Positions 2-24,100 of a DNA stretch of 64,000 nt are shown here, one piece after another. A program made the position numbers and the translations under genes. Location of the stretch: the NCBI RefSeq assembly GCF_000516985.1, contig NW_006917093.1:5365013-5429012 (forward strand), read 5' to 3'. The DNA comes from Pestalotiopsis fici W106-1. Taxonomy: Eukaryota > Ascomycota > Sordariomycetes > Amphisphaeriales > Sporocadaceae. The notes beneath the pieces were generated by a model. It saw nothing but the letters and a program-made list of their open reading frames with translations, did not search any database and was not told the DNA's origin. Position 1 is the stretch's first letter, and every line of letters begins with the position of its first letter.

Positions 2-3000
2 CTATCACCAGAGGAGACATCCGGCTTCTTTGGCGTGGCCTTTTATTGGTGGGTCAATAAGATCCTCAGGAACGGCTATTCCCGTGTCTTGTCCCTGGAT
101 GACATGCCGGCCTTTGGGAAGTCTCTCGATGTAGGAAGAACAAGGGATGCTATGCAGCGAGAGTGGGACACGATAAGTATGCAGAACTCCGGCTCTACCA
201 TGACTCGTAAGGCTTTCTAACAACCCCAGAAAAGCAGAAAGGTCGCTTCTCCTTAGTTCTGGCGCAGCTGAAGTGTTCTTGGTGGTCAAATATCGACATA
301 TTTGTGCCACGCTTCATCTACATTGTGCTCCGTTGCTGCCAACCTCTTCTGATTAGCCGAGTCATTACTTCTGTCAGCAGTAGCTTGACGTCCTTCGACA
401 ATAGGAATGAAGCACTTCGCCTGATCTTATTGGCATTCGTGATTTATACGGGCATGGCGGTACGTTTGATACAAGACGAATAATCTAATGAGAGGAGATT
501 GTTGAAACCAACGTTTTAGATCTGCAATGGTATGTACGAGCGCCGAATCGCACAACTAAACTGTCAGATTCGCATGGGCCTCGTTGGAGTTATCTATAAC
601 CGCTGCCTGACAATCGAAACTGGCGTCTTGGACGACTCGGCCGCCGTGACGCTTATGAGCAGCGATACAGAAGATGCGGCCAACGCCGGCGAGCTTTTTC
701 ACCAATTATGGTCAGAGGTATTAGAGCTTTGTATTGGAATGTACATGCTGGCTCGAGAACTAGGTTGGGTGTGCATATCCCCCCTTCTAGTCGTGCTCTG
801 TACGTCCCTGTACCCCACTCGCCCCGGTATCTTTATGGTCGCGCTGACGTCCGACAGGCACCTCCAAGGCAGTCAACTTCATCACTGAGAATTTAGTGGA
901 TAGGCAAATAGCATTCAGCCAGGCGACGCAGATGCGCATCTCAACGACCAAAGCCATCCTTGACGCTATGAAGAATATCAAGATTATGGGTCTCGGCAAG
1001 AAGATGGAGGGCAAGATCCAAGCCACCAGGGTCCACGAAATGAAGCAACTTGTCGCATTTCACCACCTCCTGGTAGCCTTTTTCGTGAGCGGTAAGTGGA
1101 TACTTCGGTTGCATCTTGGGCCATCTCCTGACATTGACCTCTGCAGCCGTGGCCTTGAGCCTTTTTAGCCCTGCCATCACTTTGATCATCTACGCCATAC
1201 AATCACAGCTGCGCGGAGTCAAGTCCATCGACGTGGAAATGGTTTTCACCTCCCTCGCCATCATAGACATAGTTACTACCCCCGCCAACACCCTCCTCAG
1301 CATCTTGGGAGAGGCGGCATCCGTCATAGCTGCTTTCGACCGCATCCAGTCGTACCTTCTCAGCCCAGATCGTGAAGACAGGCGAGAATTCCTCGACACG
1401 CAATGCCCCGACCACGATTCTGAGAGCAACGAAGGCAGCGCAGCCAGTGTTTCGCTCGATCAAGTTGCCATCCGCCTTGACAATGTGACCGTTCGTCCTG
1501 CCTCCACGGCGGCACCAGTCCTGAGGAACATTAGCACAGTCATTAAGAAAGGCAGTCTGGTGGTTATTTCCGGAGCCGTGGGTACTGGAAAGTCGAGCCT
1601 TGCGAAGACCCTTCTAGGCGACCTTACCCCAGATGCCGGGGTGATACAAACAGCCTACCTTTCGATAGCGTATTGTTCTCAAGCAGCCTGGTTGACCAAC
1701 GGTACCATAAGAGAGGCCATATGCGGGCCAATTGGCGATGATACGGTGCCAGTTGAAGAATGGTACAAAAGGGTTGTACACGCATGTGGTCTCGAGGAGG
1801 ACTTCAGTCAGTTGCCGGATGGGGACCAAACTGTCATCGGCAGTCGGGGTATTACCCTTTCAGGCGGACAAAAGCAACGGGTGGTGAGCTTATCCATGTC
1901 CTGTATGTTCTCTGCATTCTGTTAAACCTAGGTGCAACGCAGGCCCTCGCACGATCTGTATACGCGCGTCGCAGCCTCGTCATTCTCGATGACGTTCTGT
2001 CTGCGCTCGACGCAAAAACCGCGCGGCACATTGTCGAAAACCTCATCGGCCCAAATGGCCTGTTCAAAGAACTTGGCACTACGGTGGTGCTCATCACCCA
2101 CGCGAGTAAGTTATTTGCAAGACGCCGTGCGTGGCACACACTGACAATATCTCGGCAGCGCAACACCTGTCTTTGGCCGATCATTTCATCATTCTCGGTG
2201 ATAGAGGCCAAATTGCGAAACAAGGAAGTAGGGAGAATCTCCGAGTAGAAGCTGGCTACTCTGGCAAGACCACGTTGGGAAGAGATGAAAAAGTCGATGG
2301 CACGAAACATGAAAATCAAGTCGGTAATCGTGAGAAAGGTAGAGATGAGAGCCAGGCACCCCCCAAACAGCGACAGTCAAGCATGCAGGACATCGTCCTC
2401 AAGACGGGAGACACCACGCTATACGGTAAGCTCCTATCATATCGATGAAGGATGTTTATGGTCAAGACTGACGAGACAGGCTACTACTTTGGCGCCATTG
2501 GGCTCTCACGCCTTCTTCTCCTTTCGGGTGCCCTCACTCTCTATGCCACCTTTTCAGGGGTGATCCCGTACTGGCTTAGATGGATGGCAGAGAACAGAGG
2601 CGACAACATGTGGCTCTTTACGAGCGTCTATTTCGCCCTTGCGCTTGGCGCTTTCTTGTCCCTTGTTACAGCCGTTTCGAGCGTCTTCTTCGTCATCGCG
2701 CCGCACTCGGGCAATACACTTCATGCCCGACTCCTGCGCACAGTCATGCATGCAAAGCAATCATATTTTTCCGAAACCGATACGGGCACGACGCTTACCC
2801 GCTTCGGCGCCGATATGGCGCTGCTTAACCGCCAGCTGCCCTTCGCACTCTTCCAAGTCTTGCAAAGCATCTTTAGCGTGCTCTCGCAGTGTATCCTAGT
2901 AGGACTTATTCAGCCGTTCATAACTGCCACTTTACCTTTCACGATCTTCGCCGTCTACTTGATCCAGAAGGTCTACCTGGCAACGTCGCGGCAAATGCGC

Positions 3001-4275
3001 TTCCTTGACCTCGAAGCGCGGGCTCTGGTTAACGCTAGCTTTCTTGAGACGCTAGAAGGCGTTGCGACAATAAGAGCGTTCGGGTGGCAGGAGTCTTTCA
3101 TTAGAGACAACGCCATGAAACTTGACCTGTCGCTACGTCCAGATTACTTGCTACTATGCATCCAGCGCTGGCTTGGTCTCGTGCTTGACCTTATCGTTCC
3201 GGGCCTAGCTGTAAGCGTCATCGGCCTTGCTTTTGCCCTCAAAGGGAGCACGACAGGCGGCCAAATCGGCATCGCCCTCAACGTTGTTCTACGCGCCAAC
3301 CACTCCCTGCTCCGCCTGGTGGAGGCCTGGACCAAGCTAGAGACCTCGCTCGGCTCTATCTCCCGACTGCGCGCCTTCGAGCAGGATGTCCAGCCGGAGG
3401 ACGAGCCGGGTACGACGAAGTCCCTCCCACCGTCCTGGCCTGCTCGCGGAGCCATCGAGCTTACCAAAGTCTCGGCGTCTTACAGGCCAGCAGTGCTTGC
3501 CCTCAACGATATCAGCATCGACATCGCACCGGGCACCAAAGTCGGTGTCGTGGGCCGCACCGGTGGCGGCAAGTCGTCTCTGTTGCTCAGCCTGCTACGT
3601 CTTATCGAATTGGAGGGTCAGGGCACTATATGCATCGATGGGAGCAACATATGCGATTTTTCACGCGACGACGTCCGTGCCCGCCTGATTGTGGTCCCGC
3701 AGGACCCTATGTTTATCGCAACCGATACAGTTCGCGAGAACCTTGATATTGCGGGTGCAAACATCTCAGACGACGACATAGTCCATGCGCTTGAGCGTGT
3801 CGGACTATGGGATCCGCTGCAGGCGCGTAAGCTGGACAACGACAAGAAACTGCTGTCAACTGAACGCCATGATAGCAATGACTCAGAGGAGGAATTTTCT
3901 GAGAGCGGCGACGACTCAACCGTTGAGACCCTCGACCGGACAATGAGGTCGCTGCCGCTCTCTCACGGGCAGCAACAGATGTTCTCGCTGGCTCGTGCGC
4001 TGTTGATGCGGCCATATCGCGGGCGTGTTGTGTTGCTCGACGAGGCTACAAGTAACGTCGACGGCAAGACAGATCAGCTGATGCAGACACTCGTGCGAGA
4101 GGAGTTCAAGGAGCATACTGTCATCACAGTTGCACACCGCTTGGATACTATCATGGACAAAGATGTCGTGTTGGTCATGGATGCAGGGAAGCTGGTCGAG
4201 GCTGGGCGGCCGTCGGAGCTGGTAGAAAGAGTGGACGGCTTGTTTAGAGAGCTGATCCGTGGGAAGAACCGGTAA
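2..4275 (+). CDS. ABC-C (MRP-type) multidrug transporter, 5'-truncated by the window edge
   Basis: ATP-driven full-size exporter of the plasma or vacuolar membrane. The visible 1,293 residues start after TMD0, at LSPEETSGFF. Exons are 2-176, 230-459, 520-799, 858-1091, 1147-1883, 1943-2105, 2159-2425 and 2480-4275, all GT-AG and in one frame. NBD1 has Walker A GAVGTGKSS, signature LSGGQKQRV, Walker B SLVILDDVLSALD and H-loop ITHAT; the DD instead of DE is usual for NBD1 of ABC-C proteins. TMD2 follows from about 2,480. NBD2 has GRTGGGKSS, a divergent signature LSHGQQQ, Walker B VVLLDEATSNVD and TVAHRLD. An acidic Ser/Asp/Glu insert (about 3,880-3,930) precedes the NBD2 signature. It lies next to the UstYa/precursor genes, so it may export that product; this is inference from position only. 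Confidence 0.93.
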
Positions 4276-4541
4276 ATAGAAAACGGACTTGAATCGCTTC
4301 TCAGATTTGACCAGTCTGCAGTTGCACGCCAGGAATTGCCTCACACTATCTAGTGAAGCATCGCACGTTTTGATAAAGCATTATATACTAGAGCTTGAGC
4401 ATCACATACTAGGCTGAAGTGGATAAGATAGTTAGTGGGATTCATTATGATTGAGAACATCAAAATACAGTTCTAGATCTATGCGCTTCATTGTTCGCCA
4501 GATCGAAAACGGATGACACAGTAACGACTGCCCTGATATCT

Positions 4542-5588
4542 CTAATCTACAATAACGAGAGTTTCATTGAGAATGCTCTGGATGGTGTCAAGCTGGGTAC
4601 TGTGCCGCGTCGCCCATTGGTGAATTTTATCAAAATTCCTGCAAGTGTGAGGAGTATCTGTCTTCAAGATGATTCTAGATCCCACCAGCTTCCACTGCAT
4701 TGGTGTCAAGTCCGCATGGCATTGTAGTGACTGCCGTATTTGGTTGATGCAATGTCCTAGCTTCCATTAGTTTCAATATTGTCGAGGGAAACCCTCATTT
4801 TACCACAAACCTATATGTCTAACGCGCGATGGGTCCGTCGGACTGTCGAAAAGACCCTTGTAATAGTCGGGATACATGGCCTGGCGGAGGCGGTTCTAGT
4901 AAGAAAACAGCGATTAACGTCCAATATTCCCAAAGAACTAATGACGAGTCTCTACATACCAGACAATGGAGTGAGTGATACACATCAACTCCGCTGAAGT
5001 ACAACCCCGATTCCGGCCATTGAAATGTCGAGTCTCTGAGTTCAACTTCTGTTTTATCAAAGTCAAGATTCAACCCTAGTAAGCTATCAGAATGACTGTT
5101 GTGCTTTCAATGCTCTGTGGCTTATATAAAACCAACCCCCTAGAAGCCTGCTCCACGCTTCATCAATTTCTGGTCGTGGTTGACCGACGAATTCATCACC
5201 GCCTTTATCTGTGAAGTAGTGGCCCTCGCTAGTCAATTCCACACCCCCGGAGAAGGTCTTGACTTGCAATTCGATTTCTTTTCTAGCTGGCTCTAAAGGG
5301 GATATATTAGTCAAGCCGGAAGAAAAGATGGGTTTCGTGCTGATCCATACCTAGGTCTGAGGCAAATCCAGCTTCATATGATGGCAATGTAACCAACTCT
5401 TGAGTGCGACTTAGGCTGAGAAGGCCGAGAAATGCGAATAAGGCATTGAATGAGAGGGAGATGATGAGAAGGAGGGACTGAAGCTGGATACTTTTCTTTG
5501 CCGGCTTCAATACAATTTCAGAGGTGTCCAGGAGGCCGCTCTCCTCTTCGTTCTCCGTATCTTTCTGGTGTCGCATACCGCCAAACAT
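4542..5588 (-). CDS. UstYa-family (DUF3328) oxidative cyclisation protein 1
   Basis: The family acts in fungal RiPP (dikaritin) and other secondary-metabolite pathways as membrane-bound oxidases or cyclases. Exons on the minus strand are 5588-5351, 5292-5137, 5075-4960, 4895-4811 and 4756-4542, giving 269 residues in one frame. An acidic N-terminus is followed by one membrane segment (LLLIISLSFNALFAFLGLLSL), the family block EFVGQPRPEIDEAWSRLLGG, the first motif VYHSLHCLNRLR and the second HIGHCINQIRQSLQCHADLTP. Both are HxxHC, the proposed metal or catalytic signature. Start: the frame stays open upstream to about 5,714 without an ATG, so ATG 5588 (or 5573) is used; a further 5' exon is possible. 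Its product and substrate are unknown; the neighbouring precursor-like gene is the obvious candidate partner. Confidence 0.9.
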
Positions 5589-6011
5589 AATTTCCTGAGA
5601 AACATCAATCAATGCTTTGGGGTCCAACTGGTTCAGAGAGAGAGGGTTGCGAAGAACAGAGGTATGTGAAGCGCAGCTCGGGCTTCCTTCCGGAAACGCA
5701 TCATAGGAAGCCAAGCCTAACGGATGGTTAAGCCTTGGCAGAAGCCCTAAACCGGGAGCTTCTATTCAGCCGAATCTTCTGTCTCGGGGACAGGATGCAA
5801 TTAGAATTTGAGGCTAATATGGCAACTAAACTACTTGGCGTCCAACTGATATCTTGGCGAACCCAACGAGAAAAGACTAGGATCTTAGCTCGTTCTTCGT
5901 TCCCCTCACTTGACAAGGTTTGTTTTTGTTTTTTCTCTCTGCGGTATATCAACGCCGACTAGGCAGAAGCTGATAAATCGGTTCATTACCTGCCTATTTG
6001 ATGTTGGAGCG

Positions 6012-6190
6012 GCCTCTATGATATGATATAGTCCGAATGGTGTATCTCGCTTATATGCGCCACGCCTCAAGCACATCTTGGACGCCTCTTATGATATGAT
6101 ATAGACAGAATAGTGTGCTTTTCTTACATCTGCTACGCCTGATCAAGAATACCTCCGAAGCCTCTATGATATCTATGATCTGACCTAGAC
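6012..6190. repeat. Degenerate tandem repeat, unit 72-76 bp
   Basis: Three units begin with GCCTCTATGATAT or close variants at 6012, 6084 and 6160. Units 1 and 2 continue with GATATAGNCNGAATNGTGT and a TCTTACATCTGCTACGCCT-like tail. The third unit is cut short. No coding frame runs through it. Confidence 0.75.
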
Positions 6191-6682
6191 CGCTTCTACT
6201 GTGATGCTGAACAAAAGTATTGAAATTGATGACCGCCACTCTTTCTTACCCAAGCATATGCAACCAGTAGCATCATCCAGAAACCTACTTAGGTAGTTTC
6301 GCCACCGTAGCAGCCAACACATGCCTGCTATCTCAACAAATCTCATGATCAAAGAGTACCTGGTAGATACCGAGACTAAGGATTCATGCTAAAGATTCTG
6401 CTATTGTTGGCTGCCAAGAAGACTATTGTTTCGCAATCACCAGGCCACAATAACGTTATGAATGCCAAGAGTAGGATGAAGCATATTGACTCTTACCAGT
6501 ACGAGTACCCTCGTCTCTGGAAGTCGCGGACCAAAAGCCTTGGCTGATTGTAATCATCAAGCCAAGAGACCAAAGGATCAAGCAATGCAGCCATTTGGTG
6601 ATAGCATCCTCATTAATACGGCTTTATATTGCATGGGGGTAATTCTGGGGAATTCCCATCACGTTGGACCCTGCCGCTGACA

Positions 6683-6930
6683 CATTCCATGGTACCCAAT
6701 TGGGGGTTTTTCCGATGTAAGCCGCTTCCTTCCAACATCATGACAAAGCAGTTACAATGGTATAACCAGCATAACGGCCGTGTTAGCCGAACCAACCCCT
6801 GCCCCAGCCGCATTCCATGGTACCCAATAGGGCTTGTTCCAGGAAGAAGTTACATAGTATATTAGCTCTTAAGCGAATCAGCCCCTGTCGCAAATGCATT
6901 CCATGTTACCCAATTGAGGTTTGTTCTACG
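6683..6930. repeat. Three dispersed copies of a CATTCCATGGTACCCAA motif
   Basis: Copies of CATTCCATGGTACCCAA (third copy CATTCCATGTTACCCAA) start at 6683, 6811 and 6897. Each is preceded by a CCCCTG/CCCTGCCGC-like stretch and followed by a G-rich GGGTTTTT/GGCTTGTTCC segment, so the unit is longer than the motif. Spacing is 128 and 86 bp. Confidence 0.7.
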
Positions 6931-7366
6931 AGCAAGGTGTATTAGTAAAATGAATCAAATGATACTCAAGTGATGGTGGTATAAGCAATAGTGGTGTGAA
7001 GGTCAGAACTCCTTTGTAGACGTAGTGTTTATAGCTTGGCTCTCACAAGTCATTGCAACAATAAAGCCGGTGCGGAAAAATCACATATTACATAACAAAA
7101 AATGGTACTTGTGCGAAAACAGCCTTTGCATTTGCATGAAGATTAGGGAAAATCTCCGAGGAAGACAAAAACCTAATCAAGGCGGTACTAAACGACAATT
7201 GGACCCAACACGAACCATCGCTGGTAGGTCGCCCGCACCAAGCGGAGGCAGGGCTACATATTGTTGGCTGCTGTGAGGTGTACGTGTAAAGATCCGAGCT
7301 TGCTCATAACTGGTTGAAACAACGATATCTGCAGTCCCCTCACGCTGTTCATCTCTTGAGCCTTCT

Positions 7367-7683
7367 TTACTCGAGGTTGGAGCCGTCTTCGCTTCGCTTG
7401 TAGTCGTCCGATGCCTCCTCAGATCTTGAGTATTGACTGGGTACAAATTGCACCTTCTTCTGCCTTGCCTCGAGGGCGGGTTCGGCAGTATCTCTANNNN
7501 NNNNNNNNNNNNNNNNNNNNNNNNNNNNNNNNNNNNNNNNNNNNNNNNNNNNNNNNNNNNNNNNNNNNNNNNNNNNNNNNNNNNNNNNNNNNNNNNCTCG
7601 AGGGCAGGTTGGGCAGGATCGGCTAGGGGTGCAGCGACACCCAAGGTAGCCAACAGGCCAACGAGGAACAGTTTGGCGTGCAT
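7367..7683 (-). CDS. Putative repetitive secreted RiPP precursor (dikaritin-type), interrupted by an assembly gap
   Basis: ATG 7683 opens a classical signal peptide (MHAKLFLVGLLATLGVAAP), followed by Asp/Pro/Ala-rich sequence reaching the motif PALE at 7608-7597, right at the 100-N gap. Beyond the gap one minus frame resumes with the same PALE motif (7480-7469) preceded by an Ala-Glu pair, then has a Lys-Lys site (7459-7454), a polar segment with aromatic residues, a Lys-Arg site (7399-7394) and a stop at 7369-7367. The gap length is arbitrary, so the frame beyond it was chosen by this repeat match. Repetition, signal peptide, dibasic (Kex2-type) sites and two flanking UstYa-family genes are the hallmarks of dikaritin precursors. 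Core peptide and copy number cannot be read. If this class is right, the product could be a bioactive or toxic cyclic peptide; that is unproven. Confidence 0.6.
7497..7596. other. Assembly gap, exactly 100 N
   Basis: A run of 100 N is the usual placeholder for a gap of unknown size. Both flanks end in the same CTCGAGGGC-containing motif, so the gap probably hides a tandem-repeat array the assembler could not resolve. Confidence 0.97.
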
Positions 7684-7811
7684 TCTCAATGACAAGTGGA
7701 ATTCAAAGTATTGAAAAAATGTTGACAGAGCGGCAGATAGAGCTGATGAAGGACTTGTGTTTGCTTGGTGTCGAGTGAATGAATAAAATCCTCAACAGGC
7801 TTCGTCGGGGG

Positions 7812-7819
7812 TATTTATA
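7812..7819 (-). promoter_or_regulatory. TATA box of the precursor-like gene
   Basis: TATAAATA on the minus strand, 129 bp upstream of ATG 7683. Position and sequence fit a core promoter of a strongly expressed small secreted-protein gene. No matching regulator site was identified. Confidence 0.5.
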
Positions 7820-8230
7820 TCGGTTCAGCGTTCACCCAGAATCATGTTATGTTTTCGAGAAGTCGTACCAAGAAAATCATCCTAGTATCCATCCCAGTAT
7901 CCCAACAAGGGGATTGATTGCAAGAATCAGTTGACCGCAGCATCGTCAGGCTAGTTTGATCCTTCCACGGTATGATAGACCTTTGGTACATCTCCTGACC
8001 AGGATTCTCAAACTCGCTCACTCCGCCACTTCATCAGTCTAACATGCAAATGCAAGAACATTTTGTGCGCTCTCAGCGCTTGAGAGCCCACGGGACCTTG
8101 CACCTTACCAATCATAACATGTGTCTGTCTGGGGTCGGCATGTCGGTCGGAGTGCATGTCTGGGATCCCGTATAAATTGCCGTTTTCCTCATGTTGCGCA
8201 TGCAATTACGATAATACTGGCCTACGAATC

Positions 8231-8330
8231 GGCTTGTTGCAATTTTGGCTTTCCTGCTTCCAAGTCTAGAGCTAATGCTCACCTAAAAATGGGTTTGTTG
8301 CAGTTCCTTTTTCCTGCTTCCAAGTCTGGA
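8231..8330 (+). repeat. 60-bp direct duplication at the 5' end of UstYa-like gene 2
   Basis: TTCCTGCTTCCAAGTCT occurs exactly at 8251-8267 and 8311-8327, and the 20 bases before each copy (…CTTGTTGCA… and …TTTGTTGCA…) are also similar. The offset of 60 bp is a multiple of three, so the frame upstream of and around the proposed start is duplicated in phase. Confidence 0.7.
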
Positions 8331-9383
8331 GGTCTTCTACATGAAGACGGTCAAGAGGACGAGAAAGATACCTTTCTTCCTTCGCATCGACCTCTCCGTC
8401 CCCTCCAAAGTTCGAGAGGGAAACGGCTGGAGCTCTGTCTGCTTATCGTTAGCGGCACTATCCTCATACTTGGCCTTGCCATAGCGGTTCTTGCTATAAA
8501 CCGATCTACCGGAGTGTCCATGCCCTTTGAATCTGGATGGGTGACGAAAATTGGTAACAAGAGGCCAATAATCCCTTATTCCCAATGAGCAACAAACTTA
8601 CGCTTTTATAGGTCCACCATATCCAGTGTTAAGCATCGAACAGGTGCATTTCGATGCTGGACTAGCCTTGAATGAGAAAGGAGATCTCATCAGGACCTCT
8701 AATGTCGAAGGGTCCCGTCAATATGTTGGCGAGCCAAGCGACGAAATCGATTCCAACTGGGAATTGTTAATACGTAAGTAGGCAACCGGTGTGCAAAGAC
8801 TCAGCCGCTAACATTCGTGCAAGCTTCGGATACGAACATCACCCGCGAAGAAGCTCAGCAGATAGGTGGTGAATTCTATTTCTATCCTGGTACAGACATT
8901 GCTACAATTGAGATATCCTCTTTTCACTTACTGCACTGTCTAGTAAGTCTAAATAAGAAACACGAATACATTTCAGGAACTAATCTTCCTCAAGGATATG
9001 GTTCGTCAGTCTGTGCAATGGGAACATTATTGGCCGAACGGTGTCGACAAAAGGCAACAAGTGCATGTCGGTACGTGACTGACTTGATGCAGTGGCTTAC
9101 TTTAGCAGCAGCGGTACACTAACATGCACGATTAGACCATTGCATTGACGCCATAAGACAGTATATCCAGTGCCACATGGATCTGACGCCAATTAACCTA
9201 GTATGGTCCAAGAACAGAGGGGGTATTTTGCCAGACTTCAAGCAAGTCCATACCTGCCGTAGTTATCGAGAAGCTCATGAATGGGTTCTCCGGAGGAACA
9301 TTGCAAACTATGAATCCGGTATAGGCGACAAAGGTGTCGCTGATGATGCTCGCCAAACACTCCAGCGGTTGGGATGGGAGTAG
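8289..9383 (+). CDS. UstYa-family (DUF3328) oxidative cyclisation protein 2
   Basis: Second, more divergent UstYa homologue, divergent from the precursor-like gene. Exons are 8289-8553, 8612-8773, 8824-8942, 8995-9070 and 9136-9383, giving 289 residues in one frame. An acidic/basic N-terminus is followed by one membrane helix (LELCLLIVSGTILILGLAIAV), the family block RQYVGEPSDEIDSNWELLI, the first HxxHC in FHLLHCLDMVRQSVQWEHYW and the second in DHCIDAIRQYIQCHMDLTP (here xxxHC). A Trp-rich VHTCRSYREAHEWV segment matches the equivalent tail in UstYa 1. The start at ATG 8289 is the first ATG of the open frame but lies in a 60-bp duplication, so it is uncertain. Known dikaritin pathways commonly use two UstY-type proteins; finding two here supports that reading. 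Confidence 0.9.
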
Positions 9384-10575
9384 GGTTGAAGTAGAGTATC
9401 CAGATGTATAGAGAACTGCCGCGTGTGAAATAATTCAACTATTTTCATGTCATCTGTAGTAAATATTTTGACCAAGAGAGCTGTTGCCGTCAGCCAGCTG
9501 ATCAGCCAGGGTTCATGTTAATTTTCCATCGTAATCTTGATAGTATAGCTAATCGTCCCGGCTCTGGATCATGGGACAATAAATAAGGTTCAACATCGCG
9601 CCGAAGACAGTATGCCTGCTCCTCGACTAATTAGCTTGGCTAATTCCTACGGAATTTCGCCTAGACCTGGAGTACCTCCGACTTGTCGCTCTCCTTGATC
9701 ACTTCCTTGGAGCCATATTTGGATCCTCCGACCTCTAGATAAAAGTTTGCTCCGTGGGCAATACGAAGGGATCCACGCATCTCAATGCCGATTAATCGTC
9801 ACCCTCCTCGCTGAGTATAGTATACATACGCCACATGACTAACAAACAATGGCTATTGGACCCTCAGTAGACCCATCATATGTTGATATACATACGCCGC
9901 ATAGCCAAGAAAAATAGCCAAGAAACATAGCCAAGAAACATAACTCACAGACATAACTGACAAGAAATGCATATTGGACCCTGCAGACCCATCGCATCTT
10001 GGCAGTGGCTTGATTCTGATGTTTGAGAAATCTCAGGAGGAGAAGGATGGGTGTGCACGCATCGACGCTTACGGCGCATGGCTATGATGGCTGTCCAGTA
10101 GAAGCTGGTAGAATTGTGTTGAGCACACTCAGTCGTAGGTTATCCGCACGTAAGGCACTGAATTATATTCTACTACCCTCAGATGACACGTTACGGAACG
10201 TATGATATCGCAAGAGTCTTGAATCGAGTGACCAATGCAGGCTCTACTCCATGATCTGTCTTTCCAAGTCTTTCTTCTGCTAGAGAACTCAGCTTGGATG
10301 AAGGATTTCTAGATAGGATTATTAAATTTTCAACAACTCGTGCTATTTGACCAGACGCACTGTCGGGACTCTGCTACGTGTGAATGGGTGTTAAGTTTGC
10401 AAAGCGTGATGTTTGAGACACCGTGATAGATTATTTCAAATTATACTTGTCAACAGATATACTGTACTTTGATGATCTACTATCGCCTAGGACTTGTGTT
10501 CATTTATCATCTCTGACCGTCTTCCGTGCTTTGCATGAGGCTACACGATCATTGAAAATGACCAAAAATCTCAAG
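9384..10575. other. Intergenic, 1.2 kb
   Basis: No gene recognised. It lies between the convergent ends of UstYa-like gene 2 and the HxxHC protein. It contains a degenerate duplicated block, listed separately. Confidence 0.5.
9821..10013. repeat. Degenerate duplication with an embedded 13-15 bp microrepeat
   Basis: TATACATACGCC(A/G)CAT occurs at 9821 and 9887. Each copy later contains TATTGGACCCT(C/G)(A)GCAGACCCATC-like sequence (9854 and 9972). The second copy is expanded by three AATAGCCAAGAAACATAGCC-type units at about 9901-9942. Confidence 0.65.
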
Positions 10576-11325
10576 CTACCTATATCCATCAGCGGATGCG
10601 GTTCGATCCCGGGCCAACGGGGTCAATCCCGTCTCAACTTCACACGAAGAAAACCCAACAAATGCCTTGGTAGTTCGTTGTTCGAGAGCATCGACATCGA
10701 GATCAAGAGCGCGGACGAGCACCTCAGCACAGTGTTGCGTGTGTGAGAACTCCAGGCTGTCGTCGTCCAAATACAACCCACCACGTAAGTAGCCTCTGTG
10801 CTGCCTCAGCCACGCATAAGCACAGTGAACGACGTGGTCTCTGATACTTGTAAAGTACCCAAGTGGCGCAACTCTTTCCGACATTGCATCTAGATCCAGC
10901 ATTTCTTTGCCCTGCCAGTCGTTGGACCCGACCCAATCGGCTGCTTCTTGATACGCCTCCGTGATCTCCTTGTCGAAACATGGTTCTGGAATCCATACAA
11001 CCGATAACGGATCGTACACACAGCCAAGCGCTCTGGCTTCAGCGGTCGAATTACCGCAGTTGAGAGTTGTGGTCGAGATACTGTTCTGAGATGTGAAGTG
11101 GGGTTGCAACCAGAAGGCGAGCAGCCAAAATAGGGATGTGCAGAGAAATGTAAAAACGATGGGGAGATGTCTTGTCTTCCAAGAGCGAGCATTCCTAGCA
11201 TTCTTGGGCTTTTCATCATCGTCAACAAGCAGTCGCTCTTCCGCCCCGGGATCTATTTATCGTGTTAGTGGACCGAATTCTTTCAATAACATCTGAACGT
11301 ACTCACAATCATCAACAGTACGCAT
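10576..11325 (-). CDS. Membrane-anchored protein with two HxxHC motifs (uncharacterised fungal family)
   Basis: Exons 11325-11307 and 11252-10576, intron 11253-11306, 231 residues. A short acidic N-terminus is followed by one membrane helix (LPIVFTFLCTSLFWLLAFWL), then LNCGNSTAEARALGCVYD, a WIPEPCFD motif, and two HxxHC motifs: RDHVVHCAYAW and FSHTQHCAEVL. The CGxSTAEARxxGCxxD opening is a conserved fungal family I recognise by pattern but cannot name. Topology and the paired HxxHC motifs parallel UstYa proteins although the rest is unlike DUF3328. Location next to the UstYa/precursor set suggests a tailoring role in the same pathway (inference). The last residues after GFSSC are less certain, since an intron there cannot be excluded. 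Confidence 0.78.
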
Positions 11326-11599: not shown

Positions 11600-14500
11600 C
11601 TGTGGAGCATTTATTATTCACCAATCTATTTATTGGAGCATAAACCTTTTCGGTAAAATACCAAGATTTAGCCTTGCAAACTTGCATAACCGATAATTGT
11701 TATAATTGCGATATAAGCCCCGTTTTAACATAATATCGCTTAAAATGGGACTAGCGCATAAACGTTTAAAGAAATTTAATCTACGTGAATGGTTAATATT
11801 CTATGCTTACCTAACATCATACTCTATAGTTTTCCAGGTGTACGGCCACATTTCTTGGCGTGGTGTTGTTGACTAATTATACGGCTGTATTTAAGTAAAA
11901 TCGGGCCTGATCGTTTTGCTTTTTGCGGCTTTAAACTTTTTTTACGCTTTTAAAGCAGTTTTAAATTTAAATATATTAAATAAAATAATATTTTCCGTTA
12001 TTATTTATTAATCCGTATTAAATTTATATTTTTTAGTATTAATTTAATGCTTTTATAGCGTTGCAAAAGCGTGTTTTTTTAACCTATTTTTACGCTATTT
12101 TTAATTTTAAAGCGTAGTTTTTTTAGCCGTAAAGCGTATTATTTATTATATTTGGTTTATATTTATTAATAGGTGTATTTTTACGGTAATTTTCGGTAAT
12201 TATTTATAAAGTTATATTATTTTATAATTTAAATTCGATTTAAATAAAATTAAAATTTATTTTTGGGCGAATTAGGAAGGCTTTTATTTATTTTTTTGGT
12301 TTTCGTAATTTTTTTTTATAAACTTTTTTTTTTTTTACGTTTTTTTGCGCTATACGTTTTTTGCTTATTTTATTTTTTTTTATAATAGCGATACCTGCTT
12401 TTTTTGCTTATATATTATTACCGAAATATATTTTTTGCCGGTTTCCCTAAATTAGTGCTAATATTTAACCTATAGTTATAAAGTTTAAACCGTACGTTTA
12501 GGCCTTAAAATATACGCAAAAAAAGGCTATTTATGCTTATTATTATTTTTTTTATATATATAAAATAAAATTAAAAATTTTAAATTACCTTTTAGCGTTA
12601 TTTTTTATATTTTATTTTATCGTAGGAAAATCGCTTAAAAGCCGTGCCTAAAAAGGATTATTTTTCCTTATTTAGGTATAAATTTAATTTACGGGCGATA
12701 TAAAATTAAAAAAGGCGCTTAAAATTTCCCGGTATTCGCTTTTAAGCGAATTTTATAATGCTTTATATATCGTATAAATCCGAATAAAGCTTATTAGCCG
12801 GATATTAAGGCAAAAAATAATTAAAAACGTTTTTTATTACGGGTTATATAAAAGCTGTATTTTTAGGCGTAGGATTTTAAAAAGTATTATTAGGTAATAG
12901 GTATATACGAAATTATATAAATGTGTTTCGGTGGCTATTATTACTTAAAATGTTTTTTTTTTCCTAATAAACCTTTTTTAAGCGATATAACGGTTTTTCG
13001 GGCGGCTATTTTATAAGTTAGGTTTGTTGCGTTTATTATTAATTTAACGGGGGATAAATCGGCTATTAAATTATTTATATACCTTTTATTTAACGTATTT
13101 TTAACTAAAAATAAAACGGTTATAATCGAGGTTAAATAGGATAAGCAATTTTAATCCGACGTTAATAAATATATTCGAATATAAAATATAATTATAAATT
13201 TTAAAAACGATAACGCTAATTAAATTAGGGTTAATAATATTAACTTTATTCCGTTAGCGGTATATAAGCTCGAAAAGCTATTTTTTATAAAAAAAGCAAA
13301 AAATAAAATTTAATTTTTTTTAGGCCCGGATAAAACCGGGTCGGGCCGTTTACGTAATATTTAAAAAAATATTAAGGCTAAAATAAATAAAATAAAAAAA
13401 TATAATTTTAGTATAAAACGGCAGGTTTTAAATAAGGCCAAGCGTTATATTACGTAATAATTTATTACGGATCGCGCTTTTATAGTTTTAGCGTCGATAA
13501 AAGTAATTACGCCGCTATATAAATAAACGAAATTTATTAAAAATAAATTAGTATTAACGCTTAAAGCCGCGCTTTTAAATCTTTATATAACTTATAAGCA
13601 TACGGCCGCAGAGGCAAAGGACGATAATAGCGATAATTCGGAGGCTTTCGTATTTATTAATAGCCTAAAGCGTTTTAAAAGGCTAGCGAGGTAATTTATT
13701 TTTTTCGATTTAGCGAAAATATATAAATAAATAAATCGGGTTTAGGTTTTTTTTATTAATTAACGTTTTATTATTTTTGCTTATATTTAGCGTTTATTTT
13801 TATTTATATTAACGTATTATACGATTAATATTATATTTTATTTATATTAATTACCGGTTTATATACCGATAAAATTATATTAATTTATAAATAGCTTTTT
13901 TATATTATATTTAGCCCGATATAACGCGTTTAATCGCGTATGCGCTTTTTTCGTAAAATTTATAAATTTATAATTATTATAAATTTTTTTTAATACCTAT
14001 ATTTATTTATTAATGCTATAGCTCCGCTAAAGCTAACGCGTAAATAGCGTATATATAGCTATTACGGCCGCGATTAATTTTTTAAAAAAATTAAATTTAA
14101 CGCAAAAAATAATTTATATAAAAATTATAAAAAAAGCATTAGTTATTATAGCTTGCCTAATAATAAACGGCGTTTTATTTTTTAATCGATTTTTTTCCGC
14201 GATTTTTCGATTTCGAGATTTTTTAAATAAGCCCGGCGGATACCTTTTATTATATAAAACTTTATTATTAACGAAAACCCGGATAAATAAGGCCCGGCTA
14301 TATTAAAAAATAAATATAATTTAAAATTATTTAATTTTTTGCCTATAGGCTCGGATAAATTTAATACCGATTAAAAGATATATATTAAGGCTAATATAAC
14401 TTTTTATAAATAAAATTTTAGCCCGGTATTCGCGCCCCGGCGCCTAAACCTAACGGCTAAATATATTATATAATTTTTTATTAATAATCCGTTTACGGTT

Positions 14501-15186
14501 TTTAACGACGACGTTAGCGCTATAATATATTAATATAATTATTATAACGCTTTTTATTAAAAAAATAAAATTATTAGGGCTAAATATAGCGAAAGCTTTA
14601 AATTTAGTAAATATTATAATAACGGCCGAGTCGTTTTTTAGCCGTTTTTAAAACCGCCCGGTTTCCTTTAGGCGCTGTTTTCCGGGCGCGATACCCGTAA
14701 TAAGGCGTTTTATAATGCTTTATAATAATATAATGCCGTTTATTCGTTTATATTTATATAGCTTTTAGTATTATTTAAATTTAAAATACTTTAATTTAAT
14801 AATAATAGCCTTAATTATTATTATATATAAAATGCTTTTTATTATAAAACCGGACTTTTATAGCTATAGGTTAAGTTTAAGCCGACGTATTAGTAATTAT
14901 ATTTTTTAAACCCGAAAAAAGCCGTATTAATGCGAATAAGCCTAAACGATAGCTTTAATTTAAATATAATAGTTTAGCTATTAAATTATTTTTATTATTA
15001 TAATCCGTATATAAAAATTTACGCGATTATTCGGGAGCGTTTTGCTTAAATAATCGTTAAATAGCGCCGTTAAAATTTAAATAGCGAGGCTTTATAAATT
15101 ATTTTAAATTTTAATTTTCGTTTAGTATTAAAAAAAGGCGTAAATCGCCGGCGGGAAAACCTTTCGGTCGTTAATAATATTATTAG
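11600..15186. mobile_element. RIP-degraded AT-rich DNA, unclassified repeat remnant
   Basis: Extremely AT-rich, with TpA everywhere, scarce CpA and TpG, but CpG still common (GCGTT, CGGTA, CGTAA). This is the signature of RIP, which converts CpA to TpA on either strand. No open frame of any length survives. The sequence runs into the left LTR of the first Copia element. I could not identify the original element. Confidence 0.7.
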
Positions 15187-15419
15187 TGTTGATCAAGGTG
15201 GTGCTTTCCTATTGGAGTTTAAACTGGTCTGGTATAGGTGTCAATTGTGTAATATATTGATCTATATTCTACGCCTTTTAGTTTTAATAAGGTGTACGCT
15301 TATTTGGGTGGCCCCGGCTAATCCCCGGGAGGTCCCGTATATTTATTTAAATACTATAGGGTTAATCCGTGTGCTTAAATATACCCTAGTATATAGGAAC
15401 CATAATCTACCATCTGATA
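15187..15419. repeat. Left LTR of Copia element 1
   Basis: 233 bp, starts TGTTGATCAAGG and ends CCATCTGATA; the terminal CA expected is TA, as RIP would give. It contains a GC-rich GGCCCCGGCTAATCCCCGGG block that escaped mutation in both copies. Confidence 0.9.
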
Positions 15420-18400
15420 TACCCCTTTAAATTCACGATTTATTATAGATTTGGCTATATTTAAATTAAAGTTGCTAATTAGCAAAATATGGCTTTTTTT
15501 AGGGCTATTCGTTTTAATTACGATAAGCAACGTTAAGTCCTATTTATTGCAGAAAATTCTGCTATTTGCCTATTAGCAAGCTTTTCGTTAATCTATTTAT
15601 TATTATTTTATTTAAGGGTTTATAAATAATTTTAATTTTTTTTTTAGGCTTTTTGTCGTAACTAATAATTATGGATATTTATATAACGGAGCTTTGTTTT
15701 TAATAACGCGATTTTAGCGTTAATTAAATTAATAGTTTGCTTATTATTATACTTAATAATAATAGTATTATTATTTAGCTATATCGATAATTCCTTTAAT
15801 AATCGGCTAACGAATAATATTTTTTTGGCAGTTTACGCTAGGGTAAGTAATTTAGTTTTTATAGTGGAAGTGGTAATTATATTTTATTTATTTGATCGCT
15901 AATTAATTAATTTTCCGAATAGCTTTATAGCGAATGCTTAGGTATTTTTGTAATCGATATTATTATCGGCAAATAATGCGTTATTAGTAATTATTAAATT
16001 AAAAAATCCTCCGATTTTAAGCGAGAGTTTTTTAATATTAATTAGGTAAATTAAAGCTCGATTAGCAGCTTTTTAATATATTTAGCTTAGATTATTAAGG
16101 AATCGAGCTAATTTAGCTATTGCGAATACGATATTTAGTTTCGTAAATATAGCCGCAAATAGCAATAATCCGATTTTTTTTAATATTTTTATATTTTATA
16201 AGGAAACGCTATAATTAATCGAGGTATAAGTTTTTCGTAGCCTATTAGCGTTATATAGATTTTTTTTTTATTTATAAATTTGGCGATTTTTTTAAAATAA
16301 GCCTTTTAGGAGAGCCAGATTATTTTAAATGCATGATTTCTAATTATTTTTATTTTAAAGAACTATTATATTAATTTGCTATTATTAATTTTGTATTTTT
16401 TTATAAGGTATTATATTAAGTGATTAATAGCCTTTTTATTTTTATTCCTATATACGATAATTATATCGTTAACGTAAAAAAAAATTAGCACTTTTTTTTT
16501 AATAAATGCGTAGGGCTTATATAATATTTAAATATAACCGATTTCGGCTAGAGTTTTTATAAATTTTTTTTGCTATAATAATAATAATATCCGTAATTTA
16601 TAAAATGCTTTATTTAATAATAATATAGCGTTTTTTTTTCGATATTTATCCGGCATTTTTATAAATATATTTTAATTAATAGGAGCGTATATAAACGCGT
16701 TTATTACGTCGTATTATATTAATTTAAAATCGAATTTCGCTATAATTGCGATTAAGGTGCGAAATGATTTTCTAGCCAATATAGCCGCGTAAATTTCCTA
16801 ATTCTAGGATTTCGCCTATTAATTACCGCAAACGACGAGTTTTGCTTTGCATTTTTGGAATTTCCTGTATTTATTAAATTTATATATGTATACCTATATA
16901 TAATTAAAGATTTATTTACCTTTTATTCGTAAATTTTTTTTATTAATTTCGATCTAAAATCGCATATTTTTATAATTTTATAAATAATTAGCTTTTATTT
17001 AAAGGAATAATTTGCTAAACGGATAATAATATAATTTATAATGCTATTTAAAAAAAGCTGGGATTTCCGCTTTATAAATTTTTACCTTTTAATAAAAAAA
17101 GCGTTTTAGTTTCGCTTTATCGTTTTAATTATTGCTTTATCCTATTTTAAAAACGGCTTTATAACTAATTAAGAAAGCTATTTGCTATAGGATTATTTTA
17201 AGTCCTTTTTTTAATAACGCCGTATTTTTAATCGTAATCGCCTTTATATTATATATTAATAAAGCTAATAAAAATATTTATAATAAAGTTTAAAAGGCAA
17301 ATTTCGCGGTAGTAAAAGGGTATTATTTATTCTTTTTATTTAGCGCTATTTCCTTATTCTTTTAGTTACTATTTTCTTTTTAATTATTTTAATTATTGCC
17401 TAGCAGGATATTTTTTACGGCGGTATTTTTATTTTTTAATTTTTATAAAATTTCGTCCTTAAATATTGCGTAATTAGTTACGAAGTCGGCGATAAGCTAG
17501 GTATTAGCATTTAAAAGCTTATTTTTAAATATATCCTATTTTCCGTCGCATAATTCCTTTTCGTTTATAATTATATTTTTCGTATTAATTAATTTATTTT
17601 AATTAAAAATTTAAATTTTGTAAATATTAAATAACTTATATCCGATTAAATATCCTATTTATGCTTTAGGTGCTAATCGCTATAAACGGCCGAATTTTTA
17701 TTATACCGTTAGCGTTATTACGTACGCTTTATATCCGAATGCTTTAAAATAGGTTTAATTAAATTTATAACTTAAATTTAAAACTCTTTTTATTTTCGTA
17801 ACTACTTTATAAAATTTTATATATAATATATGCTATCGGGAACTATAATTCGGCGTGTGATTATATAAATATACCGCGGTTTTGCTAATTTCGGGCCAGA
17901 GTTAATAAAAGAGTTTTGCGCTAATACGCATTACCCGTTCCTTTTTTTTAATTATACCCCTTAAGCGTTTAATAGCTTTATTTTAGGCTTATATATATAA
18001 TATTAAAAGCTCGAGTTTAATATATTTATTTTTAAGGTATTTTCCTATTACTTATTTAACTTTTATAATTTCGTTATCGTATTTAATAATTTTAATTTTA
18101 ATATTATATTAGGTTTTTATTATGTTTAAAAACGATCGGAAAGCGTTAATTAATACAACCGTAATTTTTTCCGTAAAATAATAGTTTTATATATATCCCG
18201 TTTGCCGATAAATAATTAATATTTAAGATATATAATTTTCGATTTTTTTAGTATAATTATAAAAATTTATAGCTAATCGTTCGCTATAATTTTCGTTAAT
18301 TAGCCGTGGCGCTCGCTATAGTTAGCGCGTGATTTTTATAAATGTATAGGCTTTATATTTTATTATAATTAGTCTTTTAATTTTTACCCTTTAAAATAAA

Positions 18401-20214
18401 TAAATAAAGTATTCGAAAGCTACCGGGCCTAAATATCTTATTTTATAATATTATTATATAGCTTTCCTAATTAATAATAGCCTTTTTATTTATATTATAT
18501 ATTTTTTCCGGTAAATAGCAAATAACGTTAAAGGTAATTCGTAAGGTTTATATTCGAAAACGTATTATCCGTATCGGTTTTAGAATATGCTAATTAAAAA
18601 TTTATTTTTTTTGCGTAATATTATAAGGTCGTTTTTATTATCTTAATAATATTTTTATCTTTGTAATTAACGGAATAATATTAATATAATTAATAGCTTA
18701 GGATAATAGGCTATATTATTTAATAATAATATTTTAGATCCGAATTATATAATTATTATACCGTACCCGTAAATAGGTAATTTCCGGTCGCCTAACTAAA
18801 TAAAATCGTAATTAGGAGCTTACCTATAATTAATAAGCTTTTTTTTTATATTTATAATTAAAATTGTTATCGCTGGATTTAGGATAATTAAATGGCGCAA
18901 AGGGTAGTTTTTTGTAAATACTATAAAACTGCTTTATATATTTGCTATTAATCGTCCGTTCTATTAATTTATATTAATTAAAAGCGATTTTTTTTTTAAT
19001 TATTCGTAATATATTAATTCGGCTGGTTTTAATCCTTTTTATGCTATAAACTTATTTTTATAGGTTAGGGTCTTTTTTAAAGGCTTTATTTATTTATATT
19101 TGCATTTTATTTTTAGGGACAAAACTTGGATAGGCTTTTTTTAAAAATACGTAAAAATATAAATTAAAAGCGTAAAAAAGGTGGTAAATAGGGCATTTAA
19201 TATTTTTTTGCCTTTTATTATAAATAATTCGTCTATTTTTTTTTTTACGTAGATTAGCCGCATTTAATCGGAGAGGCATTTAATTTTTAATAAAGTAAGC
19301 GTCTTTATTTTATCCGTTTTAAGGCTATTTTTTAGCTTTATTAGCGTAAATTGCGAAAGCGCCTTTCCTAATTTTTAGCCTAATCGGTTATTAGATGCTT
19401 AAGCTTTTACGGAAGTTGTTGCTTATTACCCGATATTTTAAGTTTTTATTTAAAATATTTTATTTTTTGTAAATTTAATAAAAAGCGGCTTATTATAATA
19501 TAATTAAAATAATTGTATTTAGGAAGTTTATAGCCTAAGCCGAATTATTTTATATTTTAATTATTTGTTTTATTTAGGCTTTCGCTATAATTATTTTTTA
19601 TTTATTAACCTAATTAATAGCTTTTTTAATATTTTCGGAGGCTTAAAAGCTTTTAAATATTATTTTTTTATTTTTTTTTTATTATTTATAGCTAATTTGC
19701 TATAGCGAGCCCTTAGATTTTCGTATTATTTATATAGGGGTTTGTTAATTAAGTAATATATGGAAAAAAAGTTTAAAAAAATCGTTATAATTATTTATTT
19801 CGTGATTTCTTTAATCGCCGTATATTGTTTAGCGTATATAGCCTTTTTTATTTTATAATAGTTATAATCGAGGTTAAATAATTTCTAACCTCCTTTAATA
19901 AGATTCGTGATCGTCTATTCTCCGTTTTTTTTATTTTATATAATTAAATCGTCGTTTATATTTATAGCTTCGAAGATAGCAGCCGCGGTTTTTATATATT
20001 TAGTTTTTTTTATATCCGGTTCGATTGGGGTTTTAATTAAAGTCGTTTTATTTTTAAAGTAATTAGTTAATCCGGTAATTTATGCTTGGATTTAAAACGC
20101 ATATTCCTAATTATTTTAATCGGAGGTTATTTTTAACGATGCCGTTAGGCCGATTCCGGCTTTTTTCGTAGTTATTATTTTCGTAGCTTCGGCGGAGGCA
20201 TTGAGATTTTTAAT

Positions 20215-20447
20215 TATTAATTAAAGTGGTGCTTTCCTATTAGAGTTTAAACTGGTTTGGTATAGGTGTTAATTATATAATATATTGATTTATGTTTTAC
20301 GCTTTTTAGTTTTAATAAAGTGTACGCTTATTTAGGTGGCCCCGGCTAATCCCCGGGAGGTCCCGTATATTTATTTAAATATTATAGGGTTGATCCGTGT
20401 GCTCAAGCACACCCCAGTGTATAGGAACCATAATCCACCATCTGATA
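20215..20447. repeat. Right LTR of Copia element 1 (5' LTR for the minus-strand element)
   Basis: 233 bp, same length as the left copy. It starts TATTAATTAAAG where the left LTR has TGTTGATCAAGG, a pure RIP-type difference. Its far end (GCTCAAGCACACCCCAGTG) is less mutated than the left copy. Confidence 0.9.
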
Positions 20448-20542
20448 ATTAGCCTTTTTCCGGATTATGCCGAGCCCGAACGCTAGCGTAAAATAATTTT
20501 AGCGGAGCGTAATTTTAGGGAATTTGCGTTAAAAAGGATTTT

Positions 20543-21171
20543 TGTTTTAAGGTATGATTGGTGGATCATAAACTTAGGCACAGGGAAGCGTTCGTATGAT
20601 TCGTAGAATCAGGCCGTAGGAGTAGTTATAGGGCTATATAACTAATTTATTAAAGCTTAAGGAAAGAATAACTAATTACGGAGGAATAACTACCTTTTAT
20701 ACCTATAAAATCAACTAATAAGAACATTCTGGAATATATTACTAATAAACTGGATTATAAATCAAATTAATTAGTAATAAGGTTGATTTATAATCGAAGA
20801 AACTATAAAATTCTATGGATTTCTACGGTGTGGGTTACCCTATAACCCTGGGACCATTATGGCCAGGTGCACTGGCCACACTTAGTAGGGCTTGATCCAG
20901 TGGAACGTTCCACTGGATTCCAGTGGGTTCCAATGGCCATAGTGGCCACAATAGTCAATTATAATAATTTATTAACTGTATAGCACTATGAATAGTGGCT
21001 GTAAGTGGTGCTGTATTGATTGTAAGTTAGTATAGGGTAAGTTCCACTGATTTCCCATATATCGTTATTTAACGATATCTCGATGGGTTTTATAGCTGTT
21101 ATAACGATATAATATATGTTATAAAGCTAATTTTATATATTATACGATGCTATATTAATATCCGTGCAATA
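20543..21171. repeat. Left LTR of Copia element 2
   Basis: 629 bp, TGTTTTAAGG to GTGCAATA. It contains a perfect 22-bp palindrome centred on AACGTT (20896-20917), adjacent to a further CCAGTGG copy, and a near-palindromic TATCGTTATTTAACGATA. Less mutated than the right LTR in its GC-rich centre. Confidence 0.88.
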
Positions 21172-24100
21172 CTCCCTTTATTAAATAGTATCGGTTAAAT
21201 TTAATAATTTGATAAATTTCTGAAATTTATCTTTAGGAAGTGGCTTTATAAGGCCGTTTACTGGTATATCGTTGGTTAAAATATATTCGATTCGAATATT
21301 TTTATTTTTAACCTTTTATTATATATAAAAATACCGTATAGCCGTATATTTAATATATTAGTAATATTCCGGATTATATGCTAAATTTATAGCCTTTATA
21401 TTATTTTTTTAATTAATACGGTATTTATATTAATACCGATTTCCGTAAAAAGATTTTTTAATTATATTGCTTTACGGGTAGCCTGCTCTAACCCGTTAAA
21501 TTTGGCTTCGGTGGTTAATAAAAAAATCGTAGATTGCCGTTTCGATTTCCAATTTATCGGCCCGTTATTTAAAATAAATAAATAACCGGACGTTAATTTA
21601 TGGGTTTCGTAATTACTAGTAAAATCGGCATCGGAATAATTTATTAATCCGGGTTTTATTTTCCCGTTAAAGGTAATTCTAAGGTGGTAATAGGATTTTA
21701 AATAATTAAATACCCTTTTTACCCTTTTTATCGTGGTTTTCGATAGGTTATATATATATTTGGCTAAATATGCTATAAGGTAAGCTAAATCGGGCCTAAT
21801 TTAAATTATAGCATATATTAATTTACCTAATAAATGCTAATATAAGTAGATAAATTCCTTTAAAGCCGGTTTTTCGTTGCTTTCTTTTGCCGTATATAAC
21901 GATTTTAGGAATCTAAGGCTAAGTGGTATATTAGCCGGTTTTATATCGGAAAATCCGTTAATTTCCAATAATTTTTTAAGGTAAATTGCCTAATTTATAC
22001 GAATTATTTTATTTTTTCGATTTTTTTTAATTTATATACCAAAAAAATAAAAGATTGGTCCTAAATCTTTTATTTCGAATTTTTTCGAAATATCCTATTT
22101 TAATTAGTTAATTTTACGTAAATTAGGGCCAAAAATCAGGAAATTATTTATATAAATTATAATAAAAATATTAGATTTTTTATTATAATAAGCTAATTCG
22201 TTTAAAATAAGTGGATTAAATCTAAGCTTTTTTAAGCTGTTTTTTAGCGTAATTTGCTATTAGCGTAGATTTTATTTAAAACCGTATAAGGCCTTTTTAA
22301 GCTAAATTACCTGGGAGTCGTCGTTTTTCCAACCGAAATTATTTAATTCCGGGTTTTCGGAAAAAAATTCGGATAATCCATTTATAGGGGTAATATATAT
22401 TTTTTCGTATAATTCCCCGTTTAAAAAGGCACCGATTATATCGATTTATTCGATTTCCTAATCGTAATAAGCTATTAAGGCTAATAAAAGCCTTTAAATA
22501 ATAGATTTTATTTTTATAGCAAATGTTTCGAAATAATCGATTTTATATCGTTATTCGAATTTATATATAATTAATTTAGCTTTATATTTATCGATATTAC
22601 CGTTTTTATCGGTTTTTCTTTTAAATACCTATTTTATAGATAATAGGATTTTACCGGCTTTTTGGACTTTATTTCGATCGATGGCTTAAAAAGTCCTTTT
22701 CTAAATTAATTGCCGTAATTCAGCGTATATAACCTGGTTTTATTTTTCCTTTTTAGGGCTTTTTAGCGCCTATTTTATAGTTTTCGGTTTTGTATAACCT
22801 GAATTTTTAATAATTAAATAATACGAAATATCGGCAAATAATTCGTCGTATATAACGAATTTATTTCGTTCGGAATCCGTAAATTTCGGAAGAATTACCT
22901 TAATATTCGATTTATTCGGAATAATCGAAAAAGTATTATTAATATCTATAAATTCGGAATTTATACTAGATCTATTATCTATATTAGATTTATTCCCGGG
23001 TAAATCCGGTCGATCGTTAATTATAGATTTATTCGTAATAAATCGAAGAATTCGATCGTTTCCGGGAGTTGGATTTAGTGGATTTTATAGATCCACCGTT
23101 TCCGGGATTTATAATTAAATAAATTCACCATCGGTAGAACTTTTATCCGGTGTTATTTCCTGATCCGGTAATTCCGAATCCGGTAATTTCTCCCCTTTTT
23201 TTCGATTTTCAGGTAATAATCGAATATAAAAGGTCCGTATAATCTGTAACTTATACGGTTAATCGGGAAAATATACGTAATAAATTTTATTACCGTTATA
23301 TCTAATTATTTTCCCGTTTTCGGTAGTAACTCCGAATTTATCGGAGTTTTTACGGATTTTTTTCGGTTTATAAACTAAAACCGGTATTCCTAAGGCATAG
23401 ATTTGGGATAAATTAGGCGTATTATCCCTTTTTAGCCAGAAATAATCGTAAAATTCCTAGTAGGGGGTAAATAAACCGGATGCCGTAATAGTGAAATTTA
23501 TTAAATAAACCACTGCTTTTGCAACAAATTCCTAAAGGTTTTTCGGGAGTTATAAATCGATAAAAACCGTTTTAGTTTTTTCGATAATAATCCGGTTTAT
23601 ACGTTCGGCTATACCGTTCTATTCTAATATATAAAAGGTTATAGGTTCGAAAATAATCCCTTTTTCGGTTAAATAATTTTCTAATTTAACCGGGGAAAAC
23701 TTCCTACCGTTATCTATGCGAATAATATTCGGATATTTTCCGAATTAGGTTTTATAATATTCGATTTTATTTATTACAATATCGAATATATCGGATTTTT
23801 CTTTAGAAAATTCAATTTCCCGAAATCCGGTTTTATTATCCGTAAAACCAATTATATATTTATAACCGGAATAACTAAAAAGGGTAATATAAACCGTATC
23901 GATATAAATATAATATAACGGTTTATTAGCCCTATTCGGATTCGTACGGGGCTAATTTCGGGTAAATTTTCCCGAAATATAAGATTCGCAATTTAAATCT
24001 TCCTTTTTTAATTCCTTTTTAAGAATCCCCGTAATTATTTTAGCTATTTTAGCTAAAATATCGTAGCTAAGGTGGCTAAGTCGTTTATGCCATTTTTCCG

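Follow-up and report, generated by a model that had tools for sequence, protein, structure and literature searches.

A candidate dikaritin-kind RiPP gene cluster of Pestalotiopsis fici W106-1: a putative precursor split by an assembly gap, two UstYa genes and an additional double-HxxHC gene

Results

The DNA analyzed here (the window) is a stretch of 64,000 nucleotides, C3:5365013-5429012, from Pestalotiopsis fici W106-1, a tea endophyte (PMC4320822) of the order Amphisphaeriales with an assembly of 51.7 Mb in 20 contigs. Its left end probably harbors a gene cluster for a dikaritin-kind ribosomally synthesized and posttranslationally modified peptide (RiPP). There a predicted Kex2-processed precursor, broken by an assembly gap, is accompanied by two UstYa enzymes (genes B and D), a third protein with a double HxxHC motif (gene E) and an ABC-C transporter for export. 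An earlier note on this DNA had proposed a dikaritin-type cluster with these components. The third HxxHC gene proved to be the most informative part of the cluster. From left to right the order is ABC-C transporter (+), gene B (-), gapped small frame (-), gene D (+) and gene E (-):

2-4275, + strand: ABC-C type transporter gene, truncated at the left edge of the window; frame 1089-1925 matches PF00005, frame 2449-4275 both PF00664 and PF00005
4542-5588, - strand: gene B, UstYa/DUF3328, spliced, one hydrophobic helix; PF11807; HSLHC, plus HIGHC across an inferred splice
7367-7495, - strand: candidate precursor, C side, reading RDTAEPALEARQKKVQFVPSQYSRSEEASDDYKRSEDGSNLE and then a stop
7469-7492: gap-edge direct repeat, left copy, matching the right copy at 21/24 nucleotides and ending 4 nucleotides from the gap
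7497-7596: assembly gap inside the candidate precursor, exactly 100 N
7597-7620: gap-edge direct repeat, right copy, 24 nucleotides abutting the gap
7597-7683, - strand: candidate precursor, N side, with a signal-peptide-like start (ATG at 7683), reading MHAKLFLVGLLATLGVAAPLADPAQPALE and ending PAQPALE at the gap
8289-9383, + strand: gene D, UstYa/DUF3328, PFICI_05739, 289 amino acids; PF11807; HLLHC and HVDHC
10576-11325, - strand: gene E (E-type), PFICI_05740, 231 amino acids, one membrane helix; HVVHC and HTQHC in frame 10576-11256

The UstYa genes and the transporter

By PF11807 score and HxxHC(x)nHxxHC motif, the products of genes B and D are UstYa-family proteins. Both loci exceed the cut-off in a genome-wide PF11807 search, which confirms the two UstYa-type proteins named in the earlier note. 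Three of the four scanned exon frames of gene B match PF11807 at E <= 0.01, with 53.3, 22.4 and 18.4 bits against a curated cut-off of 25. The HSLHC motif is read directly, and the second motif, HIGHC, depends on our own splice model. For gene D the match falls in one of three exon frames (58.1 bits) and is also carried by the public protein PFICI_05739, to which our model is 98% identical, the difference being one intron end. A weak structure model places the gene D motifs on helices 174-188 and 201-220. The two proteins are far diverged from one another (27% over 256 amino acids, with B taken from our splice model). The adjoining ABC-C exporter was likewise borne out by its ABC_membrane and ABC_tran matches.

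The gapped precursor candidate

The small frame lies between the two UstYa genes. Its N side has a hydropathy peak of 2.43 over 11 residues, and the signal peptide is thus a prediction from hydropathy. The dibasic sites KK and KR are found on the C side; the earlier note's claim of dibasic sites holds there, but the N side has none. The direct repeat at the gap edges is well beyond chance: a match of 21/24 nucleotides was reached in none of 20,000 dinucleotide shuffles, the shuffle maximum being 17. Consequently, a collapsed repeat array is likely to underlie the gap in this frame, and any tandem units would fall in N. The gap-edge match is also the sole support for continuity of the reading frame across the gap. 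The segment VQFVPSQY, between KK and SR on the C side, is one possible core peptide, and this is a guess.

The P. fici assembly was made from 454 reads, with 586 contigs joined into 118 scaffolds by scaffolding software before and during gap filling (PMC4320822), and gaps in this genome are therefore few. Two were seen in the 304 kb that we read, against up to ~2.75 expected, and both interrupt short frames that contain repeats and adjoin double-HxxHC genes, a count to be read knowing that most of the 304 kb was chosen for its HxxHC genes.

Gene E and the E-type family

Gene E is identical to PFICI_05740 over 231 amino acids, and the earlier note's second kind of HxxHC membrane protein stands, with HVVHC and HTQHC in a protein outside Pfam. 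All six motif residues are kept in 13 of 13 E-type database proteins, that of the window included. In a structure model (pLDDT, the model's confidence score, 73.5), helix 35-62 is read as the membrane helix and the motifs lie on helices 143-162 and 175-188. Gene E is outside PF11807 by score; its motif and modeled topology suggest a UstYa-like way of working.

Homologues of E occur in Lasiosphaeris hirsuta (60%), Cordyceps javanica (57%), Lasiosphaeria hispida (55%) and Akanthomyces lecanii (53%), as well as among metagenome proteins. Those of D are found in L. hirsuta (63%) and C. javanica (56%), with four more, two of them at 32%. Hence, two of the four other named species having E also have a close D homologue, and none for the other two is among the matches listed. 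In C. javanica the genes are V2A60_010347 (E) and V2A60_010350 (D), each on a contig of 3,295,904 bases, and in L. hirsuta the D and E homologues are each on a contig of 4,599,326 bases. Given these equal sizes, we infer that D and E share one contig in both species. The three species with linked D and E represent the orders Amphisphaeriales, Sordariales and Hypocreales.

Within the P. fici genome the E-type family has seven loci, the seventh (on C10) detected only at E values of 7e-5 and 0.006. Both motifs are whole at six of the seven; the C6 copy has HLRHG as its first motif. When exon-wise PF11807 matches are merged into 23 loci, which with a 10-kb margin cover <1% of the genome, four of the seven E-type loci have a PF11807 locus at most 10 kb away (binomial 3e-7), as do three of six with the window left out (1.8e-5); the test is post hoc and assumes random gene placement, making these p-values generous. 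At the C6 locus a UstYa gene is near and no precursor was found.

Of the six other E-type loci, three (near C2:1570, C2:4922 and C10:229 kb) have a Kex2-repeat precursor at most 10 kb away, a proximity without an unbiased background, as the precursor scans were limited to stretches chosen for HxxHC genes. At C1:6661 kb there is a fourth, which is close to UstYa genes but not to any E-type match. Three of the precursor frames adjoin UstYa genes and have the units NNEVDADEYDLRSAWAKR, GNPIQDGDEYHHYNNKR / SPVEDPEVVSNEYLNYDKR and YLVKYEGDEEAAKDKR:

L027 8363-8863: Kex2-repeat precursor frame beside UstYa genes
L030 5817-6269, - strand: Kex2-repeat precursor frame beside UstYa genes
L033 1785-2075: Kex2-repeat precursor frame beside UstYa genes

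A counterpart without UstYa

A second locus, on C2, has a make-up similar to that of the window:

C2:1562873-1567030: ABC-C transporter
C2:1568114-1569151, - strand: E-type frame
C2:1570019-1570847 (L029 1519-2347, with L028), + strand: Kex2-repeat precursor frame, in which 15 EPFNVV units are visible, cut by a 100-N gap of its own at C2:1570411-1570510

The E-type gene is divergent from the precursor. It shares with the window an ABC-C transporter, an E-type gene and a putatively secreted frame interrupted by 100 N. Unlike the window, it does without UstYa, there being no PF11807 match within 740 kb among the genome-wide PF11807 loci, and its repeat units are visible. Among the 13 further matches to the ABC-C protein of the window, the C2 transporter ranks first (42% over 447 amino acids), in a ranking by exon-wise scores that covered 72 of 93 candidates and favors long exons. 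This shared make-up helps to make a RiPP cluster of UstYa type, its precursor interrupted by a gap, the best reading of these genes of the window.

Flanking and intergenic features

Flavin amine oxidase frames and a frame for a Zn2Cys6-like regulator lie to the left of the transporter, at L012 3062-3870 (- strand) and L012 5290-7764 (+ strand).

The Zn2Cys6 match there is partial (20.5 bits against a cut-off of 21), and ankyrin repeats are also present. To the right of gene E, an AT-rich block at ~12000-29000 of the window, with a GC content of 22-35% and dinucleotide indices resembling those left by repeat-induced point mutation (RIP), forms the right-hand boundary of the cluster. The indices of the 1-12 kb region resemble those of the remainder of the window.

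Tandem CATAGCCAAGAAA units (13 nucleotides, 3.3 copies) are found between D and E at 9900-9962. Three 53-nucleotide direct repeats occur at 6655-6707, 6783-6835 and 6869-6921, at 62-75% to the reference copy. Their 18-nucleotide core has three genome occurrences at <=1 mismatch, all at this site, and their minus-strand readings have WV(P/T)WN in common, each in another frame. Perhaps they are regulatory for gene B.

Discussion

Weighing the alternatives

Several observations count against a dikaritin-kind cluster with gene E as a peptide oxidase. Each side of the gap has a single PALE copy, and any array would fall within N; the earlier note's small signal-peptide protein with PALE repeated across the gap is thus upheld by the gap-edge repeat but not by any visible run of units. 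For the C side, neither a paralogue elsewhere in the genome nor a homologue in a protein database search was found. Gene E matches no Pfam family, PF11807 is touched weakly by three of 13 E relatives (best E 0.04), and a profile comparison of the E and D families is weak, with probabilities of 0.3 and 3.2% and one of 300 column shuffles scoring as high. Two E-type loci, on C5 and at C3:2141 kb, have neither UstYa nor a precursor within the 20 kb that was read at each site. The nearest tyrosinase (PF00264) match is at C3:5500044, 124 kb from gene E, and none of the genome's three S41 peptidase matches is on C3.

One alternative accepts B, D and E as a real cluster and denies that the gapped frame is their substrate; the frame would then encode a different sort of small secreted repeat protein, effector-like or pheromone-like, or the true substrate a peptide or nonribosomal product made elsewhere. 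The unseen core and the solitary C side suit this explanation, as does the precedent that DUF3328 enzymes also tailor nonribosomal peptides, for example CctR acting on cyclochlorotine (PMC12435403). We nevertheless regard it as unlikely. The frame is flanked by UstYa genes on both sides and contains KK, KR and gap-edge repeats, four further HxxHC loci in the genome have Kex2-repeat precursors, and no nonribosomal peptide synthetase domain was seen in the scanned frames beside the cluster, which make up part of the frames there. It is also conceivable that assembly created both the gap and the PALE match as artefacts, with unrelated stretches scaffolded together and no gene running across. The use of 454 reads and scaffolding software (PMC4320822) and a gap length that is a placeholder would allow this. 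However, the gap-edge match exceeds all shuffles, the clear repeat precursor on C2 has an identical 100-N break, and B to the left of the gap and D and E to its right share one pathway type, so that an artefact is very improbable. Hardly any weight falls on a decaying cluster whose product is no longer made: the RIP-like block adjoins gene E, but the cluster itself has indices similar to those of the rest of the window, and the public gene models of D and E are intact with every motif residue kept.

Proposed pathway and significance

For a dikaritin-kind RiPP cluster, the following route can be proposed. The small precursor would enter the endoplasmic reticulum by its predicted signal peptide and be cut by Kex2 at KK/KR in the Golgi. 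By analogy with CctR, a single helix would anchor each of B, D and E in the membrane, and their paired HxxHC motifs would face the lumen and bind two copper ions; the three may cross-link or hydroxylate a core that would lie wholly or in part within the gap. The ABC-C transporter would then export the product. For the toxic product considered in the earlier note, the findings weigh neither way. We further propose, as a tentative idea that we hold at somewhat less than even odds, that the E-type proteins form a second family of copper peptide oxidases with HxxHC(x)nHxxHC, defining a RiPP class of its own, exemplified by the C2 locus; the window would then bring both enzyme families to bear on one precursor.

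Surveys of fungal RiPPs rely on DUF3328 and on readable repeats. Domain-based mining misses E-type proteins for want of a Pfam model, and the window and C2 loci can escape such surveys since, in addition, their arrays fall in assembly gaps. For 6120 of 7878 Kex2-processed repeat proteins (KEPs), a DUF3328 gene nearby is absent (PMC7329392). If the E-type proteins are indeed peptide oxidases, precursors without a UstYa neighbor would gain a candidate enzyme. What is new here is the E-type family, its co-location with UstYa genes and the C2 locus without UstYa; titles and abstract openings in the open-access literature yielded no RiPP of P. fici and no E-type family, the latter being nameless and so unsearchable by word.

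Comparison with known systems

The clusters for ustiloxin, phomopsin and asperipin-2a (PMC7329392, PMC12048977) resemble the window in a UstYa pair, a small dibasic frame with a signal-peptide-like start and a transporter. Unlike them, the window has no nearby tyrosinase or S41 peptidase, has an added E-type gene, and neither its repeat units nor its core is visible. The dikaritin label of the earlier note depends on the definition applied. Under the newer one, with a DUF3328 protein as the class-defining enzyme (PMC12048977), the cluster is a dikaritin cluster to judge from its sequence. Under the older five-gene definition of Ding et al., which includes a tyrosinase, a methyltransferase and a transporter or peptidase (PMC12048977), it falls short at the tyrosinase, and the ABC-C protein supplies the transporter. 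Elsewhere in the genome, an S41 peptidase match lies 3 kb from a UstYa locus (C12:538987-546994), with an ABC-type match nearby at C12:552814, and this is possibly a classical dikaritin cluster.

KEPs are defined by at least three tandem units of at least eight residues between Kex2 sites (PMC7329392). The candidate precursor has a signal-peptide-like start, KK and KR, and a gap-edge repeat in common with them, whereas it shows one match pair at the gap edges, the remainder being N. The main text of PMC7329392 names Pestalotiopsis once, for a KEP type without DUF3328 neighbors.

A functional precedent for all three HxxHC proteins is provided by CctR, a DUF3328 hydroxylase and single-helix membrane protein with a luminal domain, each monomer of which binds two copper ions at HxxHC(x)nHxxHC and whose activity is lost in alanine mutants (PMC12435403). 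Copper binding, shown for CctR, is a prediction for B, D and E, and E stands apart from the CctR family in having no Pfam family. B and D match PF11807, and all three proteins resemble CctR and the DUF3328 copper enzymes in their one membrane helix and HxxHC(x)nHxxHC motif.

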